Positions 5,668 to 25,502 are shown, counted from the first letter of the stretch. The stretch: 34,300 nucleotides of DNA from a virus (IMGVR_UViG_3300020428_000041:1-34300), one strand, 5' to 3'. The notes: generated by a model from the sequence alone, not told the origin. Numbers and translations are program-made.

Positions 5668-5900
5668 GTACTCCAGAGTACAAAACAATTCGTACCAATC
5701 AGGCACAACTATATAAATCAACAGCTTAGAGGCCCGTCGTATAAGGGCTAGATATAAACAAACAGTAGTAAATACAACTACTTAGGATTTTAACGGTTCG
5801 AATCCCTCTCTCTCCGCCACTATTTTTTATGCCCGCAAGCCCTTGTTTTACCTACGTTGTGCGTTGTACTTTTTGTGCTAAGTACACAGGGAGTACAAAC
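5668..5900. repeat. Candidate integrase arm-type sites around attP
   Basis: GTAC-centred words flank the att core. On the left are an inverted repeat GTACTC-CA-GAGTAC at 5668-5681 and GAGTACAAAA at 5676-5685. On the right are TTGTACT at 5864-5870, AGTACAC at 5881-5887 and GAGTACAAAC at 5891-5900. Tyrosine integrases of the lambda type bind short arm sites on both sides of the core, so these are candidates. The last copy overlaps the integrase ribosome binding site. The rest of 5667-5901 carries no gene. Confidence 0.4.
5795..5819 (+). other. attP core: 3' end of a tRNA-Ser gene
   Basis: These 25 bases run from GGTTCGAATCCC (3' part of a T-arm) through CTCTCTCCGCCA, an acceptor strand with encoded CCA typical of tRNA-Ser. 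The rest of the tRNA (anticodon and long variable arm) is absent upstream. Phages that integrate into tRNA genes carry such an end so that integration restores the tRNA. The integrase gene starts 83 bp downstream, the usual neighbour. Because phage genes lie on both sides, this is attP, not an integrated attL or attR. Confidence 0.75.
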
Positions 5901-5901
5901 G

Positions 5902-6924
5902 ATGGCATCAGTAAGACCTCAAAGCGGCAGTTTTCAGGCTATCGTGCGTCTGAAAGGCATACGAGTAGTCAAAACATTTGATACCAAAACGAAGGCAAAG
6001 TTTTGGGCTAAAGACGTAGAAACGCAGATCAACGACGGCACATGGATCGATGTTAATAAACAGAAAACCATCGATCTGCACACCATACTTCAATGGTCTA
6101 TCGATCAAGCTCAATCGAAAAAAGCTTTTGGCAAGTCAAAGCTTGCTGGCATGAGGAGGATGCAGCGTGAGATTGGGCATCTGACATTAGATAAACTCAC
6201 AGTTGAAAATGTTGTTTTGTATGCTACGGCTCTCCGGCAAGACCTGGCAGCAAGCACTGCTACGCAATACCTAAGTTACTGCGCGAAAGCAGTTAGGCGG
6301 GCGAAGAAAGTACAGGATATTCCTCTACGAATAAATCCATTTATTGAAGCTTCTGATTTGTTGAAAGAAGAAAAGCTAACCGGCGCTAGTAATGAACGTG
6401 ATCGCAGACCGACAGACCAAGAGTTGGCGTTGATAGATCAGCACACGGATGGGTATTTGCGGTCTTATTGTTTTGTTGCTTTGGATTCTGCTATGCGACA
6501 AGGAGAGATTCATGCGCTTAGGAAAGATGAGTTGGATTTCACAAAGGATTTAATCTTGGTTCGTAATCGCAAAGACAAGGACACAGATGAGGGCCGTGAC
6601 ATGGTAATTCCTATGTTTGGCCCGACGAGAGAGGTGCTCCTACGCGAATATAAAGCCTCTAACCAAGAGTCAGCTATTAACAACGCGCCTAAATTAGCGG
6701 CTTCTGTCTCTGATAAGTGGAGTAAATTTAGAAAAGCTTACCTTCCGTTAGTGTCGACAAAAGACGATAGGTTGAGATTCCACGACTTTAGGCATGAAGC
6801 AATTAGTCGTTTGTTTGAAAAGAACTGGGATATACCAGAGGTAGCTGCAGTGTCAGGACATAGAGATTGGTCGCAGCTAAAGCGATACACCAATCTCAAG
6901 CCTGAGAACCTAGTCCACCGATAA
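5902..6924 (+). CDS. int: Tyrosine-type site-specific integrase
   Basis: This is a 340-aa tyrosine recombinase that would join attP to the host tRNA-Ser attB. An N-terminal AP2-like arm-binding region (SFQAIVRLKGIRVVKTFDTK) and a core-binding SAM-like region precede the catalytic domain. The catalytic signatures are all present: the box I Arg (DSAMRQGEIHALRKDEL), a mid-domain Lys region (VRNRKDKDTDEGR), HDFRHEAISRLF for the His-x-x-Arg, SGHRDW for the second His, and the nucleophile in LKRYTNL. I chose ATG 5902 because GGGAG lies 8 nt upstream and the AP2-like part starts there; an upstream GTG/ATG adds only 15 unlikely residues. Its end overlaps the convergent HTH gene by 15 nt, and one candidate arm site covers its Shine-Dalgarno. 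Confidence 0.93.
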   Translation: MASVRPQSGSFQAIVRLKGIRVVKTFDTKTKAKFWAKDVETQINDGTWIDVNKQKTIDLHTILQWSIDQAQSKKAFGKSKLAGMRRMQREIGHLTLDKLTVENVVLYATALRQDLAASTATQYLSYCAKAVRRAKKVQDIPLRINPFIEASDLLKEEKLTGASNERDRRPTDQELALIDQHTDGYLRSYCFVALDSAMRQGEIHALRKDELDFTKDLILVRNRKDKDTDEGRDMVIPMFGPTREVLLREYKASNQESAINNAPKLAASVSDKWSKFRKAYLPLVSTKDDRLRFHDFRHEAISRLFEKNWDIPEVAAVSGHRDWSQLKRYTNLKPENLVHR

Positions 6925-18236: not shown

Positions 18237-18507
18237 TCTCGTTGGCGCTGAGTTCAAGATGAGCACCTTGTAAAGCTGCAAATACCTTGGTGAGTTCGTC
18301 GTACCGCTCGTTAACGAGGTCCACAACGGCGTTTACTACTTTGTCATCGAGCTTTATGGGTCGTTCGGTATCAGATTGTTTTAGTGTTTCTGCAAGATTC
18401 AAGAAATCACACAGGGGTTCCATGTCATCAGCCATAGCTTTCATTGCTACGTTGATGTCGTGAGAGGTGAGCCGTTCTACGGCTGTGGTGTCGTAGTTTG
18501 TTGTCAT
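18232..18507 (-). CDS. Small helical hypothetical protein (91 aa)
   Basis: The product MTTNYDTTAVERLTSHDINV continues as mostly helical and acidic (DDKVVNAVVDLVNERYDELT). No known family, membrane segment or metal site is seen. Its start overlaps the Zn-finger gene by 4 nt (ATGA), and its TAG stop lies within an exact operator copy. Position beside the polymerase and the MoxR/VWA set suggests a DNA-metabolism link; nothing stronger can be said. Confidence 0.6.
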   Translation of the reverse strand: MTTNYDTTAVERLTSHDINVAMKAMADDMEPLCDFLNLAETLKQSDTERPIKLDDKVVNAVVDLVNERYDELTKVFAALQGAHLELSANES

Positions 18508-18788
18508 ATTTTTCCTTTTCGTTTCAATTTGATTTTCCTTTCAATCAAAAAATTGAGTTCGTGATCGCAGTATTTTGAACATCCGTCGCAGACTACGTCT
18601 TTGCCTATAATTTCGTACTCAAGGCATTTTTCGCCGCACATGTCGCAGTCAATCATTTGGCATTCAGAGCACAGATAACCTTCTTGAGTTTCTGTGTACT
18701 TTGGGATTCTGTTGACGAATAACCCACTGCCAAACGCAGTACTGCGTCCACAATCGGTGCAGTTGTCTCCGATGTTTTGCAATGTCAT
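18504..18788 (-). CDS. Cysteine-rich zinc-finger protein (94 aa)
   Basis: The start MTLQNIGDNCTDCGRSTAFG (18788) overlaps the VWA gene stop by 4 nt (ATGA). Several CxxC pairs are present: CTDC, CSEC, CDMC, CDGC, plus lone Cys, spaced as in treble-clef or rubredoxin-like zinc fingers that bind two metal ions. The C-terminus is basic (RKIKLKRKGKI), which fits nucleic-acid binding. Possible roles are a transcription or DNA-binding accessory for the nearby polymerase or a partner of the VWA protein. No catalytic motif is seen. Confidence 0.65.
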   Translation of the reverse strand: MTLQNIGDNCTDCGRSTAFGSGLFVNRIPKYTETQEGYLCSECQMIDCDMCGEKCLEYEIIGKDVVCDGCSKYCDHELNFLIERKIKLKRKGKI

Positions 18789-19972
18789 ATATAAACTACC
18801 TTGCCCCAAGGGGCGGTTTTAGTGCGGTCATTACAGACCCACAAGACGGGGTAATTAGGTTGGAATTCGAATGAGCTTGCACCAACGTCGAGGTCAGTGA
18901 AGTACACCAGCCACCCTGGTTGGCAATCGAGTTCTTCGATGTACTGGAACGTATGGCGGAAGTTGGTGCCGCCACGTCCATGAACTTTTAGTTCATTTAT
19001 AGGTAGATCTTTTTGGGTGTAGGTTCGTTCGCTGCGGACACGGGTGTCAGCGTCTAGGAACAGCACGGAGTCAGGTCGTAGCTCACGCAGGACGGCACTC
19101 ATTTCTGATCCACATTCTTCGAGTTGGTCTGTGGTCATAGAACCAGAACTGTCCATAACGAAGATACCGTTGCTGAGTTTTTTGTTGCGTTTCTTTGGTA
19201 GGTAGACTTCGTTACCGAACCAGCGTTTCTGGAACACGTTCCAGTTACGTTTGGTGTTGTCTTTAATGAACCAGTTGCGCATGGCTGCAACCCAGTTAAC
19301 TTTAGGTTCAAGCAGAGTTTGTACAAGTTCTTCTAAGCCTCCTGGCATAGCGCCGATCTTCTTGGCTTCTTCAGTGGCTGATGCGACAGCCATCTTCCAA
19401 TCTTCTGTGATTTCTTCGCGAGTGCGGTAGTCGTCGATTGGATTACCTTTGTCGTCGATGCCGACGGGGATGATGTCGTCGCTGTTTTTTGGCTCCTCGT
19501 TATCGCCTGGGGTTGGGTAACCCTCATCCGGGTTGCCGGGTTGACGTGGTGGTTGAGGTTGAGTGCCTACTTTTTGCAGTAACTCTTGGTACACCTGCAC
19601 TGCGTTTTTGCCAGAGCCGTGTACGCCTTGGAATTCGAACATGGCTATTTCAGGCAGGATGAATCCCCACTGACGTAGCAATGCGTTGATTACTAGATCG
19701 CACGCGATATTCCACAGTTTGTCGTCGTAGCCTGTAGGTAGCTCAACGTGGTTGAAGATGCAGTGCATGATCTCGTGGGCGATGCCGCCGATGAGTTCAA
19801 GGATTGTTAGAGATTCGACGAATTTTTCGTCGTAGTAGAGGTGCGTACCGTTTGTTGCGAGCGTCCCAACAGCGTCAGATGGTTGGAACTTGAGGAGATA
19901 CAACACCATTGAGAACCAAGGGTGGTTGAGGCTCAGGCCCGTTTTGGCCTGTTGTATTTTTTGTTGTGTCAC
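18785..19972 (-). CDS. Metallopeptidase-like plus VWA domain protein (DUF2201 type)
   Basis: This 395-aa protein joins two parts. The N-terminal half has NHPWFSMVLYLLKF, GTHLYYDEKFVESLTILELI and HEIMHCIFNH (about residue 66), an HExxH zinc-protease-like motif as in DUF2201 proteins. The C-terminal half is a VWA-like domain with FVMDSSGSMTTDQLEECGSE (about 272), the D-x-S-x-S metal-adhesion site, and later YFTDLDVG. In CobT/VWA-type systems such a protein pairs with a MoxR AAA+ ATPase, here 21611-22663. The 5' end overlaps the upstream gene by 98 bp in a different frame. The middle has a Pro-rich linker and EPKNSDD acidic patch. Confidence 0.85.
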   Translation of the reverse strand: MTQQKIQQAKTGLSLNHPWFSMVLYLLKFQPSDAVGTLATNGTHLYYDEKFVESLTILELIGGIAHEIMHCIFNHVELPTGYDDKLWNIACDLVINALLRQWGFILPEIAMFEFQGVHGSGKNAVQVYQELLQKVGTQPQPPRQPGNPDEGYPTPGDNEEPKNSDDIIPVGIDDKGNPIDDYRTREEITEDWKMAVASATEEAKKIGAMPGGLEELVQTLLEPKVNWVAAMRNWFIKDNTKRNWNVFQKRWFGNEVYLPKKRNKKLSNGIFVMDSSGSMTTDQLEECGSEMSAVLRELRPDSVLFLDADTRVRSERTYTQKDLPINELKVHGRGGTNFRHTFQYIEELDCQPGWLVYFTDLDVGASSFEFQPNYPVLWVCNDRTKTAPWGKVVYI

Positions 19973-20810
19973 TAGGCACGTTCCTTAAGTTGTTGAGTTT
20001 CTTGAGAATGTTGTTTGCCGCGTTAGCTGCATCTGCTCTGTGGAACTCGTCTTTGCGAAGCTCTGAGAGATCGAGATTTGCCAGGGAGCGGGCGTCACGG
20101 GCGATGCTGTCGATGCGGGAGTCGTTAAATATATTTAAGGTTTCAATTAGCGAAGCTTTCTCCATCAGGCTCTCGAAAGGCTCTTTACGGAACTTGCCGT
20201 CCGACATAAGCCGCTGGTAGATGTTGGAAACGATTTTGTAGATCCGATTGGATATGTCGGCACGCAAGTCGCTGTCTTCTTTAAGCTGAGCTTTGTCGAA
20301 CTCTTCTTGGAGCGTGGTATCCAGTTCACTGTCGCCGGTTGGGGCTACGGTGTACGGCACAACAGTGAATTCCACACCGAACCGCTTGCGTAGCTGGCTT
20401 GGCTCGGGGTGGATGTTGGGCTGGTACATATTTTTCATAAAATTTTGTGGGCCGTTGCTTGCTAACCAAACTGTGTACTCTCGAATGAAGTGCTCGACTT
20501 CATGTAGGTATTCCAACTTGCCCTTTTCGATGGCTGCTTTGACTTCGAAGTAGCGAGCTTTGCTCGATACCCGAGAGCCTTTGGCTGCATACGGATGCGT
20601 GAAGTCGTTGAAACTGTCACGCAGGTTTTGCTTGGAACGGTTTACTCGGTTGAGCATGGCCGGGGGCACGATCTTGCGGGTGTAGGTCCCTGCATCTCTG
20701 TCTGCGTCGTAACTTGCGTTGATCTCGCGGGACAGGGACGGGTCGTGGCGTTTGCCGTCCCAGCAGGGTATGTGGAGTGACCACACAATGGCGTTGTCAT
20801 TTGTCAGCAT
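19875..20810 (-). CDS. DUF3150-like protein of MoxR/VWA set (311 aa)
   Basis: The start AIVWSLHIPCWDGKRHDPSL is like the start of DUF3150 proteins, often coded between MoxR-type ATPases and CobT-like VWA proteins in phages and plasmids. The rest is helical with coiled-coil sections (ARYFEVKAAIEKGKLEYLHE, ESLMEKASLIETLNIF) and a disordered Pro-rich tail. The identification rests on this pattern, length and location, so it is tentative. The start TAATG overlaps the gene before, while 98 bp at the end overlap the VWA gene out of frame. Possibly an adaptor or substrate of the AAA+/VWA complex. Confidence 0.55.
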   Translation of the reverse strand: MLTNDNAIVWSLHIPCWDGKRHDPSLSREINASYDADRDAGTYTRKIVPPAMLNRVNRSKQNLRDSFNDFTHPYAAKGSRVSSKARYFEVKAAIEKGKLEYLHEVEHFIREYTVWLASNGPQNFMKNMYQPNIHPEPSQLRKRFGVEFTVVPYTVAPTGDSELDTTLQEEFDKAQLKEDSDLRADISNRIYKIVSNIYQRLMSDGKFRKEPFESLMEKASLIETLNIFNDSRIDSIARDARSLANLDLSELRKDEFHRADAANAANNILKKLNNLRNVPSDTTKNTTGQNGPEPQPPLVLNGVVSPQVPTI

Positions 20811-21601
20811 TAAGCGGCTCCAATTTTGTCGATGAGGATTGATTGCTTCACATGCGACAGGTCGCTGTTGAAGGAGATTTCAGTCTTGCGCTTGGGTTTA
20901 GGCTTAGCGTGCAGGCGCTGGATGATGTCGTGCGGCAGCAGGTGCTGACCTTCGGGGAAGATTTTGAGGAACTGGCCTACGGTGTTGCATTCACTGAGCA
21001 GAGCCTTCATGTCATCTTTGATTGCTTCGCGTTTATCTTGCGCCGCGCAGCGACTTAACCATACGCCTATGGTTGCTTTGACCGAGTCGGGGGCTTCGTC
21101 CCATGAACAAGAGCGGTGTTTTTCTGCACTGAAGTTGGCTCTGGAACTGTCGTAATTAACTCCATAGTCTGAGGGTAATGGCATACCGCTGTCTGTTGTT
21201 GATGGGACAGGACAGTGTGTGTCGCCTTCAACACCAACTACAAAGTAGTTTGGGTGTTTGTCTTTTGCGTTTGCGCGAAAGTGTTGAGCACCGCAGAAGC
21301 GGTCAGATTTGTAGTACTGTTTGAAAGAAGTGCAAGTGAAGTTGATTAAGGAATCTGGGATTTCGACCCATAGATGGTGATTCCTGTTTGTTGTGGGTTT
21401 ACTGAAGCTTGCGACGAGCGCATCGCACATTTCTTTGTGGGCCGTGTAGAACCCATAGACTTCTTCGTCGATAAAGATTCGATCAAAGTCGGCGGTTTCT
21501 ATGGTTGTTGAGCTTCCTATATAGTCAGCTAAAGGAATTGTTTCTTCTGCTTTTTTTATTATGAGTCGTCGCAGTTCGTTTGTGAGGTTTACTCCTGCCA
21601 T
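20810..21601 (-). CDS. Unknown protein between MoxR and DUF3150-like genes (263 aa)
   Basis: I do not recognise this protein with confidence. MAGVNLTNELRRLIIKKAEE is an amphipathic helical start. The middle has HHLWVEIPDSLINFTCTSFK and a number of Cys/His (FCGAQHFRAN; HRSCSWDEAPD). The end has CNTVGQFLKIFPEGQHLLP and a basic tail KPKPKRKTEIS. The two ends remind me of the Nmad5 (nucleotide-modification associated) family, but the match is an impression only. AGGAGATCAAC precedes the start. It lies 9 bp after the MoxR gene, whose TAG stop is in frame with this start. Confidence 0.45.
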   Translation of the reverse strand: MAGVNLTNELRRLIIKKAEETIPLADYIGSSTTIETADFDRIFIDEEVYGFYTAHKEMCDALVASFSKPTTNRNHHLWVEIPDSLINFTCTSFKQYYKSDRFCGAQHFRANAKDKHPNYFVVGVEGDTHCPVPSTTDSGMPLPSDYGVNYDSSRANFSAEKHRSCSWDEAPDSVKATIGVWLSRCAAQDKREAIKDDMKALLSECNTVGQFLKIFPEGQHLLPHDIIQRLHAKPKPKRKTEISFNSDLSHVKQSILIDKIGAA

Positions 21602-21610
21602 GTTGATCTC

Positions 21611-22663
21611 CTAGAGCATGTTGCCAACTTCGGCGTTACGGCTGATCCAGTCCATGAACGCTTCGTGTTGGGCCAGTGGCTTTTGTGTTTTGACAATGTC
21701 GCGTATGACCATCACCTGCATCTCGCTCGGTATACGGTCTACATAACGCACGATGTTCTTGAAGTTAGCGACGCTAACTCGTGAAACCAGCGCGTTGCAG
21801 ACGGCGTAGAGCAAGGCTCCCTCGGGTACAGGGGCTTGCATTGGGTGCTCGATGAGGGCGTCCATGTCAGGGATGTTCTCGATGTCGCGCTCAAATGCGA
21901 TGAACGCACGCGCTGCTGCTAGACCAACGTGTGCCTGAACAGTCTTGAAACGATTGGGCGTAGGTAGCTGCAGGCGGTCAGACAGTATGTGCCACTGTCG
22001 TGAGCAAGGGCTGGTGTATGCGTCGTGATCGATGTTGTTGAGGAATGTAGGTTGGAAGCGCAGGAACGCACCGATGGTCGGGTTGCCGTTGATACTGAAC
22101 CAGAAACGAATGAAGTCATCGATCTCAGTTTCAAGTACATATGTAGCTACGCGAAGCTTTAGCGGGGTCGGCATGTCGAAGGTATTGCCGTGGTCTTCCA
22201 GGCGATTACCGCACATGACTATCGATACATGGTCACTAAGTTTATGTCCGCCTACCATAAAGTCATAGACAGGCTGATACAGTGCTGCCTGCATGTCCGG
22301 CGTAGCGTTAGGCACCTCGTCCATTAGGATGACCGTGTGCTCGTTGTTCTCGCCGTCGAGGGGTAGCCAGTCGAAAGGTGCGTACTCAGTGCGGGTAGCG
22401 ATGGAATCGTTGTCTTTGTTCTTCATGTACGGGTAACCGAGGAGGTCAACCGGTTCGTGGAGGTTGGCACGGAAGTCAAAGAACCTCATGCCAAGGCTAT
22501 CCACGACTTGGCGAACGATGGCTGATTTACCAGCCGACGAGGGACCCATAATATTTGCTACGATCCGGTGCCTGCCTTCTTGCACGGCGGTCTTGTTGCC
22601 TTGGAGTATGACTGCCAGTTCGCTGGTTAACTCCGATGGAGTCACTGATAGAAAATCCGTCAT
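21611..22663 (-). CDS. MoxR-type AAA+ ATPase
   Basis: The 350-aa protein is an AAA+ ATPase of the MoxR/CobS group. Walker A is IMGPSSAGKSAIVRQV at about residue 40, Walker B is TVILMDEVPNATPDM at about 115, sensor 1 is SIVMCGNRLED, and the arginine region follows in the helical C-terminus. MoxR proteins act as chaperones that mount VWA-domain partners or insert metal. Downstream in the same operon a VWA/metallopeptidase protein, a DUF3150-like protein and an unknown protein form a 4-gene set. An exact operator copy lies within the gene at 21764-21778. AAGGA stands 9 nt before the ATG, inside the gene that overlaps by 137 bp. Confidence 0.82.
   Translation of the reverse strand: MTDFLSVTPSELTSELAVILQGNKTAVQEGRHRIVANIMGPSSAGKSAIVRQVVDSLGMRFFDFRANLHEPVDLLGYPYMKNKDNDSIATRTEYAPFDWLPLDGENNEHTVILMDEVPNATPDMQAALYQPVYDFMVGGHKLSDHVSIVMCGNRLEDHGNTFDMPTPLKLRVATYVLETEIDDFIRFWFSINGNPTIGAFLRFQPTFLNNIDHDAYTSPCSRQWHILSDRLQLPTPNRFKTVQAHVGLAAARAFIAFERDIENIPDMDALIEHPMQAPVPEGALLYAVCNALVSRVSVANFKNIVRYVDRIPSEMQVMVIRDIVKTQKPLAQHEAFMDWISRNAEVGNML
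21764..21778. promoter_or_regulatory. Exact operator palindrome inside the MoxR gene
   Basis: GTTAGCGACGCTAAC is a perfect GTTAG-N5-CTAAC copy located in the 3' third of the MoxR coding region, where no promoter is seen. It is one of three exact copies in the window. Confidence 0.5.
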
Positions 22664-24198: not shown

Positions 24199-25365
24199 TT
24201 ACTTAGCTCCTTGTGCTTTTTTAAGGACGTATTCTTTGGTAACGACTCCCAGTTTGGAGTCACCCCTATGGTGAGCAGCAATCCATGTCCGTTTACGCTC
24301 GAACCCGCCTTCATCACGCAACACACGCCAGTGCCCACGAACTTCGTGTTCGCGGTTACCAAACAGTCGTGTGCGTAGGGGTTGTTTACCGATCAGCCGT
24401 CCGGCTTTCTCTTTCGGCAGGGATATACCTACCTTGAAGTGTGAGTTACGGGGCTGCATACGACTGGTTATGTTCCGCACGCCCTGGGGCCGTGGCTCTG
24501 GGTCCTTGGTTACCCAGTCGTAGTTAAGTGCAGAGATCAATGCGATGACTGGCGCGAGCGCTCCAGTGATGTTTTCTAAATAATCACTGGTGTCATTTTT
24601 AACCATGTCTACCATCGTAATGATTGATGGGCTGGATATAGAGTTAGGGACTACAGATAGATTTTTAGATAGATTTTTCAGGTCTGGTGTTGTCGGCTCG
24701 TGTTGCAGTTTATTCATGCCGCATTTACCAAGGAGCATTCTTAGGCCCATTGATCGAAGTAAATCGTTGGTTTCTTTGTGGTCAGTAACGTTGATTTCTG
24801 TGTTGTATTCGTCGGTGTAAGCGTTAGTGATTACTGTGAACGGCATGTGTCGAATAAACGGTCGGCTTTCGTTTGGAAATTTATTGGCCGTGTAAAATTT
24901 GTATTGATGGAAAAATTGCGGGAATTTGGTCTTGGAGTTTGTTGCTAAAAGATTGCTGTCTTGTTTTTCTATATGAACGCCTAGATACATTGCGCCTGTT
25001 GGATATTCTTTGCCGTCTAGTTCCAAACTCAAAAAGTAACCGGTTTTGCATTCATCAAAGTATTTTCGAAGATTGAAGCACAACCACATGTTGTCGTGCG
25101 GCACACGAGCATTCCAAAACGCATTGGCTAGTTGCCGTTCGTTTCCTTTTTGAATGAAGGGCCGCAGCGCATCGATAAGGTCGTCGCTTACTTCATACGC
25201 AACGGCGTCTAAAACATTTTTAGCTAGGGCAGGAGCCATGCGTTTGATGCCTTTTTTATAAGTCGGTTCTACTCTGTCGAAGTCGATTCCTTGAACGCGA
25301 ACCAAAGGCTTCTGAAGTTGGTAGGCTACTTCTGCTTGTAGATCACTAAGGTCAAAGTCATTCAC
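24199..25365 (-). CDS. Phage protein with RGHWR/HHRGD C-terminal motif (388 aa)
   Basis: The start is GTG 25365 (VNDFDLSDLQAEVAYQLQKP), as AGGAG lies 6 nt upstream; the longer open frame is a GC-rich repeat. The main body is mixed alpha-beta without a known fold. The C-terminal 65 residues show GHWRVLRDEGGFERKRTWIA then AHHRGDSKLGVVTKEYVL. This 'RGHWR...r.Wi..HhRGD..lG.v...Y' ending recurs in marine phage proteins; the conserved Arg, His and Trp suggest nucleic acid binding, but no activity is known to me. It is downstream of a strong terminator at 25469-25502, so it needs read-through or its own promoter. Confidence 0.6.
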   Translation of the reverse strand: MNDFDLSDLQAEVAYQLQKPLVRVQGIDFDRVEPTYKKGIKRMAPALAKNVLDAVAYEVSDDLIDALRPFIQKGNERQLANAFWNARVPHDNMWLCFNLRKYFDECKTGYFLSLELDGKEYPTGAMYLGVHIEKQDSNLLATNSKTKFPQFFHQYKFYTANKFPNESRPFIRHMPFTVITNAYTDEYNTEINVTDHKETNDLLRSMGLRMLLGKCGMNKLQHEPTTPDLKNLSKNLSVVPNSISSPSIITMVDMVKNDTSDYLENITGALAPVIALISALNYDWVTKDPEPRPQGVRNITSRMQPRNSHFKVGISLPKEKAGRLIGKQPLRTRLFGNREHEVRGHWRVLRDEGGFERKRTWIAAHHRGDSKLGVVTKEYVLKKAQGAK

Positions 25366-25403
25366 AATTAACTCCTTCCGCACACCAAATACTTTTCGGG
25401 CTT

Positions 25404-25449
25404 TGGCTCCGGCTCTGGGCCGCATCCTGGCTCTGGCTCCGGCTCTGGG
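25404..25449. repeat. GC-rich 16-bp direct repeat in leader
   Basis: TGGCTCCGGCTCTGGG occurs at 25404-25419 and again at 25434-25449, exactly 30 bp apart, with shorter GGCTCTGG units around. It lies between the terminator at 25469-25502 and the GTG start at 25365. On the minus strand it would give a CCAGAGCCGGAGCC-rich leader. It may be a slippage-made repeat or a protein/RNA binding leader. Confidence 0.5.
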
Positions 25450-25468
25450 TTTTTTCTTTACGTAACGC

Positions 25469-25502
25469 AAAAAACCCCGACCAGCTTTCACTGATCGGGG
25501 TT
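25469..25502 (-). terminator. Strong intrinsic terminator after the 232-aa gene
   Basis: On the minus strand AACCCCGATCAG pairs with CTGGTCGGGGTT (12 bp, one G-T pair) around the loop TGAAAG, followed by TTTTTT. It starts 8 bp after the stop of the 232-aa gene, so that gene is likely made far more than those downstream. Confidence 0.85.

Follow-up and report, generated by a model that had tools for sequence, protein, structure and literature searches.

A MoxR ATPase, a DUF3150-type protein and a metallopeptidase-VWA protein encoded in a phage form a conserved three-gene module found in phages and on plasmids

Introduction

Do four tightly packed genes that lie directly upstream of the polymerase block of a phage belong together, and what might their products do? 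This question is raised by the region 18785-22663 of a 34.3-kb viral contig (the window, meaning the whole stretch of DNA that was analysed), which harbours terminase, tail-fibre, internal-virion-protein and integrase genes. An earlier note had described the region as a single unit encoding a MoxR ATPase, a 263-aa unknown, a DUF3150-like protein and a protein with HEIMH and D-S-S-G-S (VWA) motifs, and had suggested the 263-aa protein as a possible new component. The MoxR/metallopeptidase-VWA pair is already known in phages, as relatives of gp24 and gp25 of Escherichia phage N4. The four genes are referred to here as P1 to P4, and the analysis concerned which of them are conserved as a set and which function their conservation suggests.

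Results

All four open reading frames were present as described, on the minus strand and tightly packed. P1 and P2 are separated by 9 nt, P2 and P3 overlap by 1 nt, and P3 and P4 overlap by 98 nt. A purine-rich leader of the ribosome-binding type precedes each of the four starts, including the GTG start of P4, where it reads AAGGA. The genes are located directly upstream of a minus-strand replication block comprising polymerase, primase-like helicase, exonuclease and helicase genes, with three small genes between P4 and the DNA polymerase gene. At its end P4 has a 25-nt overlap with a gene (18504-18809) whose 101-aa product contains several CxxC pairs and is zinc-ribbon-like (phrog_35699). By its replication genes, the window comes closest to Aeromonas phage phiA008 and Pseudomonas phage KPP25. 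An integrase gene was identified at 5857-6924 (phrog_1, E 1e-38), from which the phage is probably temperate, and a search for a terminal repeat in the contig found none. A strong terminator-like hairpin on the minus strand (25473-25502; 13 pairs and a T run) is situated at the start of the ORF at 24199-25491, the true start of which is therefore probably further downstream.

P1 (21611-22663, minus strand, 350 aa) matched phrog_1297, the N4 gp24 type, with an E value of 5e-69. The Walker A (GPSSAGKS), Walker B (VILMDE) and sensor-1 (CGN) motifs were recognised, and the Walker A/B, sensor-1 and arginine residues of the MoxR clade are all present and conserved. In profile comparisons P1 was related to midasin (E 1.5e-24) and to CbbQ/NorQ chains (E 1e-5 to 9e-4), which together bear out the MoxR assignment; the bpMoxR model scored 15.3 bits, below its cut-off of 27. 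In a phylogenetic tree P1 came out next to the N4-type clade, on a long branch and with moderate support (92/85). A firm tree placement of P1 and P4 was rejected, as the window sequences are on long branches.

Both DUF2201 domains were over cut-off in P4 (18785-19972, minus strand, 395 aa; N4 gp25 type, phrog_1314), which supports its earlier description as a metallopeptidase-VWA protein: PF13203 was matched with 107.6 bits (cut-off 23.2, E 1e-30) and PF09967 with 75 bits (cut-off 26.4, E 7e-21). The protein is composed of an N-terminal HExxH zincin-like domain and a C-terminal VWA domain with a complete MIDAS. It holds HEIMHCIFNH, that is HExxH plus a third histidine ligand, and DSSGS. With its zincin motif intact, P4 is predicted from its sequence to be a metallopeptidase. 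In PHROG, and on many phage records as well, the family phrog_1314 goes under the label 'HNH endonuclease'; this contradicts its Pfam domains and is apparently a mistake that has been propagated. Members of the pair were found in many phage records, the ATPase in 753 and the VWA protein in 597.

The third gene, P3 (19875-20810, minus strand, 311 aa), had no direct match to any Pfam or PHROG model, and PF11348 (DUF3150) was not matched anywhere in the window. The DUF3150-like assignment was reached through intermediates. P3 resembled (phmmer E 1e-10) a protein of Planktothrix phage Pra-JY27 that sits between the MoxR and VWA genes of that phage, and which is identical to a protein of Synechococcus phage MinM2 annotated as DUF3150. 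Used as a query, this protein led to 42 plasmids, and one plasmid member, from Cupriavidus, matched PF11348 with an E value of 1e-4, just under cut-off. Members from viral contigs matched P3 directly, with E values of up to 4e-29. A tblastn search of phage records with P3 gave no match, and single-protein scans of viral contigs with P1 or P3 returned nothing. The AlphaFold model of P3 was confident (mean pLDDT 84), except that the last ~30 residues, a stretch overlapping the start of P4, were predicted to be disordered. Its best viral Foldseek match was a phage DUF3150 model (E 2e-15, TM 0.75-0.79); nothing in the PDB matched the fold with E < 0.001, and the family gave only two weak matches to PDB sequences, both of them designed helical proteins. 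Because the intermediates and the predicted fold agree, and the gene context is shared, P3 is DUF3150-type in the wider sense despite the lack of a direct model match. No paper on DUF3150 was found in the open-access literature.

To establish how often these genes occur together, loci were collected in a DUF3150-family scan, seeded with DUF3150 genes already adjoining an ATPase/VWA pair, which returned 79 loci in bacterial genomes and 14 in viral contigs; the 60 and 13 close loci, respectively, were counted. Within this seeded set the order ATPase-DUF3150-VWA on one strand was found in 57 of the 60 close bacterial loci (median gaps of 77 and 8 nt), which are mostly from Burkholderiaceae and hence not independent. 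In the remaining three the VWA gene was the sole partner, and two of these loci lie close to the end of a contig. All three genes were present in 11 of the 13 close viral loci, nine of which had the same order. The module was also detected in contigs assigned to Acidobacteriota, WWE3, Rhodocyclales and Gammaproteobacteria, on an acetobacterial plasmid and in several phage groups. The DUF3150 gene lies between the ATPase and VWA genes on the Rhodovastum, Cupriavidus and Burkholderia plasmids that were fetched, and the gene order is the same in the Planktothrix and Synechococcus phages; on a Simplicispira plasmid the ATPase gene is several small genes away from the DUF3150 gene. P1, P3 and P4 thus constitute a conserved three-gene module of which P3 is a true third member. 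Of the four genes described as one unit, these three are co-conserved elsewhere in the same order, and no P2-like gene was present in the other module loci examined.

Genes for type IV secretion were frequent within 5 kb of the bacterial loci, VirB11-type in 40/60 and VirB4 in 37/60. In Burkholderiaceae the three genes immediately precede a cluster for conjugative type IV secretion (for example at L021:6861-14629), and the cluster beside the module on pBVIE02 includes VirB11, VirB2, VirB3 and VirB4.

Not every version of the system has a DUF3150 gene. None was detected with two profiles in the N4-type phages examined, which keep P1 and P4, and P3 is therefore not essential to all versions. The module was absent from phiA008 and KPP25, whose replication genes are the closest to those of the window. 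In Pectobacterium CB1, 98PfluR60PP and Vibrio 1.025.O, the genes that separate the ATPase gene from the VWA gene were examined as candidates and rejected, being unrelated to P2 or P3. More distant DUF3150 genes, in planctomycetes and deltaproteobacteria, were without the ATPase/VWA module. An ORF of ~470-550 aa with a Walker A motif was located upstream of the distant DUF3150 gene in 8 of 12 cases examined, and this arrangement is perhaps a sister system.

Residue conservation was assessed in 90 P4-type and 89 P1-type sequences. In the P1-type set, the lysine of Walker A was kept in 84/84 and the sensor-1 asparagine in 87/87. The MIDAS D-S-S was kept in 87/88 P4-type sequences, the sole exception being a broken gene. 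The full zinc set (HE..H....H) was retained in 81 of the 90 P4-type sequences and broken in the other nine; the breakage needs six changes on the tree, corresponding to about six lineages, in which the VWA MIDAS and the ATPase are kept. Loci with a broken HExxH and an intact VWA MIDAS were L008, L037, L060, L067-L069, L082 and L118/L119. Because the Walker and MIDAS residues are near-invariant and HExxH has been lost repeatedly, the core activity would be ATP-driven, MIDAS-dependent remodelling, with proteolysis optional.

These data bear on the possibility that the three proteins constitute an ATP-dependent protease, in which P1 unfolds and the P4 zincin domain cuts a specific host or defence protein selected by P3. 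The intact HEIMHCIFNH of P4 and the full motif in 81/90 family members are in its favour, and patchily distributed phage peptidases are often read as host-directed (Iyer et al. 2021, PMC7824862). The loss of the catalytic glutamate or of zinc ligands in about six lineages that retain MIDAS and ATPase argues against it, as does the lack of a defence-model match (none of P1 to P4 was matched by the PADLOC anti-phage defence models), and a protease of this kind is considered unlikely.

The location of the genes is relevant to another explanation, a virion-assembly chaperone with peptidolytic maturation. This role was proposed for the metallopeptidase-vWA/MoxR pair of jumbo phages by Iyer et al., who cite work reporting it for ATV tail assembly (PMC7824862), and virion genes are indeed present elsewhere in the window. 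In this phage, as in N4 and Pra-JY27, the genes nevertheless belong to the replication-side block, and the same three genes occur on plasmids, which make no virions. On these two grounds virion assembly is disfavoured as a general role and appears quite unlikely.

P2 (20810-21601, minus strand, 263 aa) is packed between P1 and P3, with junctions of 9 nt and 1 nt, an arrangement that would suit a protein that, in this phage lineage, is a true fourth part of the machine. Its similarities, all of them distant, were to the Nmad5/phrog_1965 phage family. Weak matches were obtained to Nmad5 (20.6 bits, E 5e-4, under the cut-off of 27) and to phrog_1965 (E 1e-3), and the same weak match of the phrog_1965/Nmad5 type was given by KPP25 gp61. 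Short motifs, LTN..R..I at the N-terminus and L..C.T..Q...FPE...LP at the C-terminus, appear to be shared with KPP25 gp61, with its relatives in Jeremy and Lana, and with gp07 of phage SSL-2009a. The hhalign comparison with the Nmad5/phrog_1965-type family had a probability of 58 and an E value of 1e-4, versus 0.16-0.66 for five shuffles, and phmmer gave E values of 6e-5 to 2e-2 against family members within a five-sequence set only. No match to P2 was found by tblastn in phage records, scans of viral contigs and bacterial genomes with P2 returned nothing, and its predicted structure was unusable (pLDDT 39). KPP25 gp61 (L017:17222-17983, 253 aa) carries the label 'DNA polymerase' from phrog_15487, which is likely a mislabel, its only other match being the weak one mentioned.

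None of the phages with P2-like genes (KPP25, Jeremy, Lana and SSL-2009a) has a DUF2201 gene, no P2-like gene was found in any other ATPase-DUF3150-VWA locus examined, and the C-terminal similarity points to an independent phage family. As its relatives occur in phages that do not have the module, and none lies in any of the other module loci examined, P2 is probably not a component but an ordinary passenger gene; the proposal of a new component is not supported, and these observations largely agree with the unrelated insertion that the earlier note named as refuting this part. A role as fourth subunit is improbable. A part in the modification of DNA bases is predicted for Nmad5, and nmad5 mutation in a Dhillonvirus allows the phage to escape Tmn defence (PMC11846954). 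Judging by its position, gp07 of SSL-2009a, itself a Dhillonvirus, is the likely nmad5 gene of that phage.

Discussion

The proposal is that P1, P3 and P4 make up, as its three subunits, a MoxR/VWA remodelling machine borne on mobile elements, with proteolysis as an option (probability about 0.55). P1 would form an ATP-driven AAA+ hexamer on which the VWA domain of P4 would dock, and the MIDAS metal ion may grip an acidic site on the target. P3 might serve as a dedicated adaptor or scaffold by which the target is presented, and ATP hydrolysis would then twist or open the target complex. The zincin domain of P4 would cut the target only in lineages with an intact HExxH, as in this phage. As the module sits in a replication-side gene block, the machine probably acts on a complex, of the host or of the phage, that it encounters early in infection. 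A mechanical model for P1 and P4 is offered by NorQD, a MoxR/VWA pair in which a finger of the VWA protein is in the ATPase pore and ATP drives rotation, a finger/twist mechanism (PMC13036017). No experiments on this module, and no experimental role for the MoxR/metallopeptidase-VWA pair in phages, were found in the literature, and the analysis could not demonstrate a role in defence, as a chelatase or in the virion.

The pairs NorQ/NorD and CbbQ/CbbO likewise combine a MoxR-clade ATPase with a MIDAS-bearing VWA partner and likely share these mechanics, but P4 adds a zincin-like domain and the NOR or rubisco target is absent here. A metal-inserting chelatase-like system that resembles CobS/CobT or Mg-chelatase and makes or loads a cofactor is very improbable even though the same-clade pair NorQD serves iron insertion (PMC13036017), given that no chelatase family was over cut-off for P1 or P4 and that no ORF of the window, itself a fragment, exceeds 848 aa, too small for a CobN/ChlH-like subunit.

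Several known systems come close to the proposed remodelling machine. The homologous genes of phage N4 (Schitoviridae; gp24 in phrog_1297 and gp25 in phrog_1314) also lie in the early/replication half of the genome; they are adjacent, without a detectable DUF3150 gene between them, whereas their homologues P1 and P4 are separated here by P2 and P3. Group 2.2 jumbo phages have the same domain pair with the vWA domain fused to an N-terminal metallopeptidase, and the section describing them proposes the virion-assembly role and mentions no DUF3150 third component (PMC7824862). The plasmid sets of Rhodovastum RHOApb, Cupriavidus pRK1-1 and Burkholderia pBVIE02 have the same three families in the same order with no P2-like gene between them, and pBVIE02 and most of the Burkholderiaceae loci are beside type IV secretion genes. 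The MoxR-vWA ternary systems (VMAP, iSTAND, FtsH, beta-propeller) of Kaur et al. 2020 (PMC7159879) likewise join MoxR and vWA proteins to a third conserved protein, which here is DUF3150. No beta-propeller was found in P2 or P3, which sets the module apart from the bpMoxR-type ternary systems. No description of the DUF3150-containing three-gene version common to plasmids and phages was found in the open-access literature. Tentatively, the module might be a distinct ternary system of conjugative plasmids and phages that serves a common step, with proteolysis as an optional add-on; such a step might be, for example, remodelling a host complex upon the arrival of foreign DNA, or protecting it against host defence.

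Recognition of DUF3150 as the conserved third member of a widespread phage pair defines a candidate complex for reconstitution. With the zinc motif lost repeatedly, the MIDAS and Walker residues are a better focus for experiments than the protease site. The presence of the same set on conjugative plasmids gives rise to a testable idea, namely that a remodelling step may be common to invading plasmids and phages.
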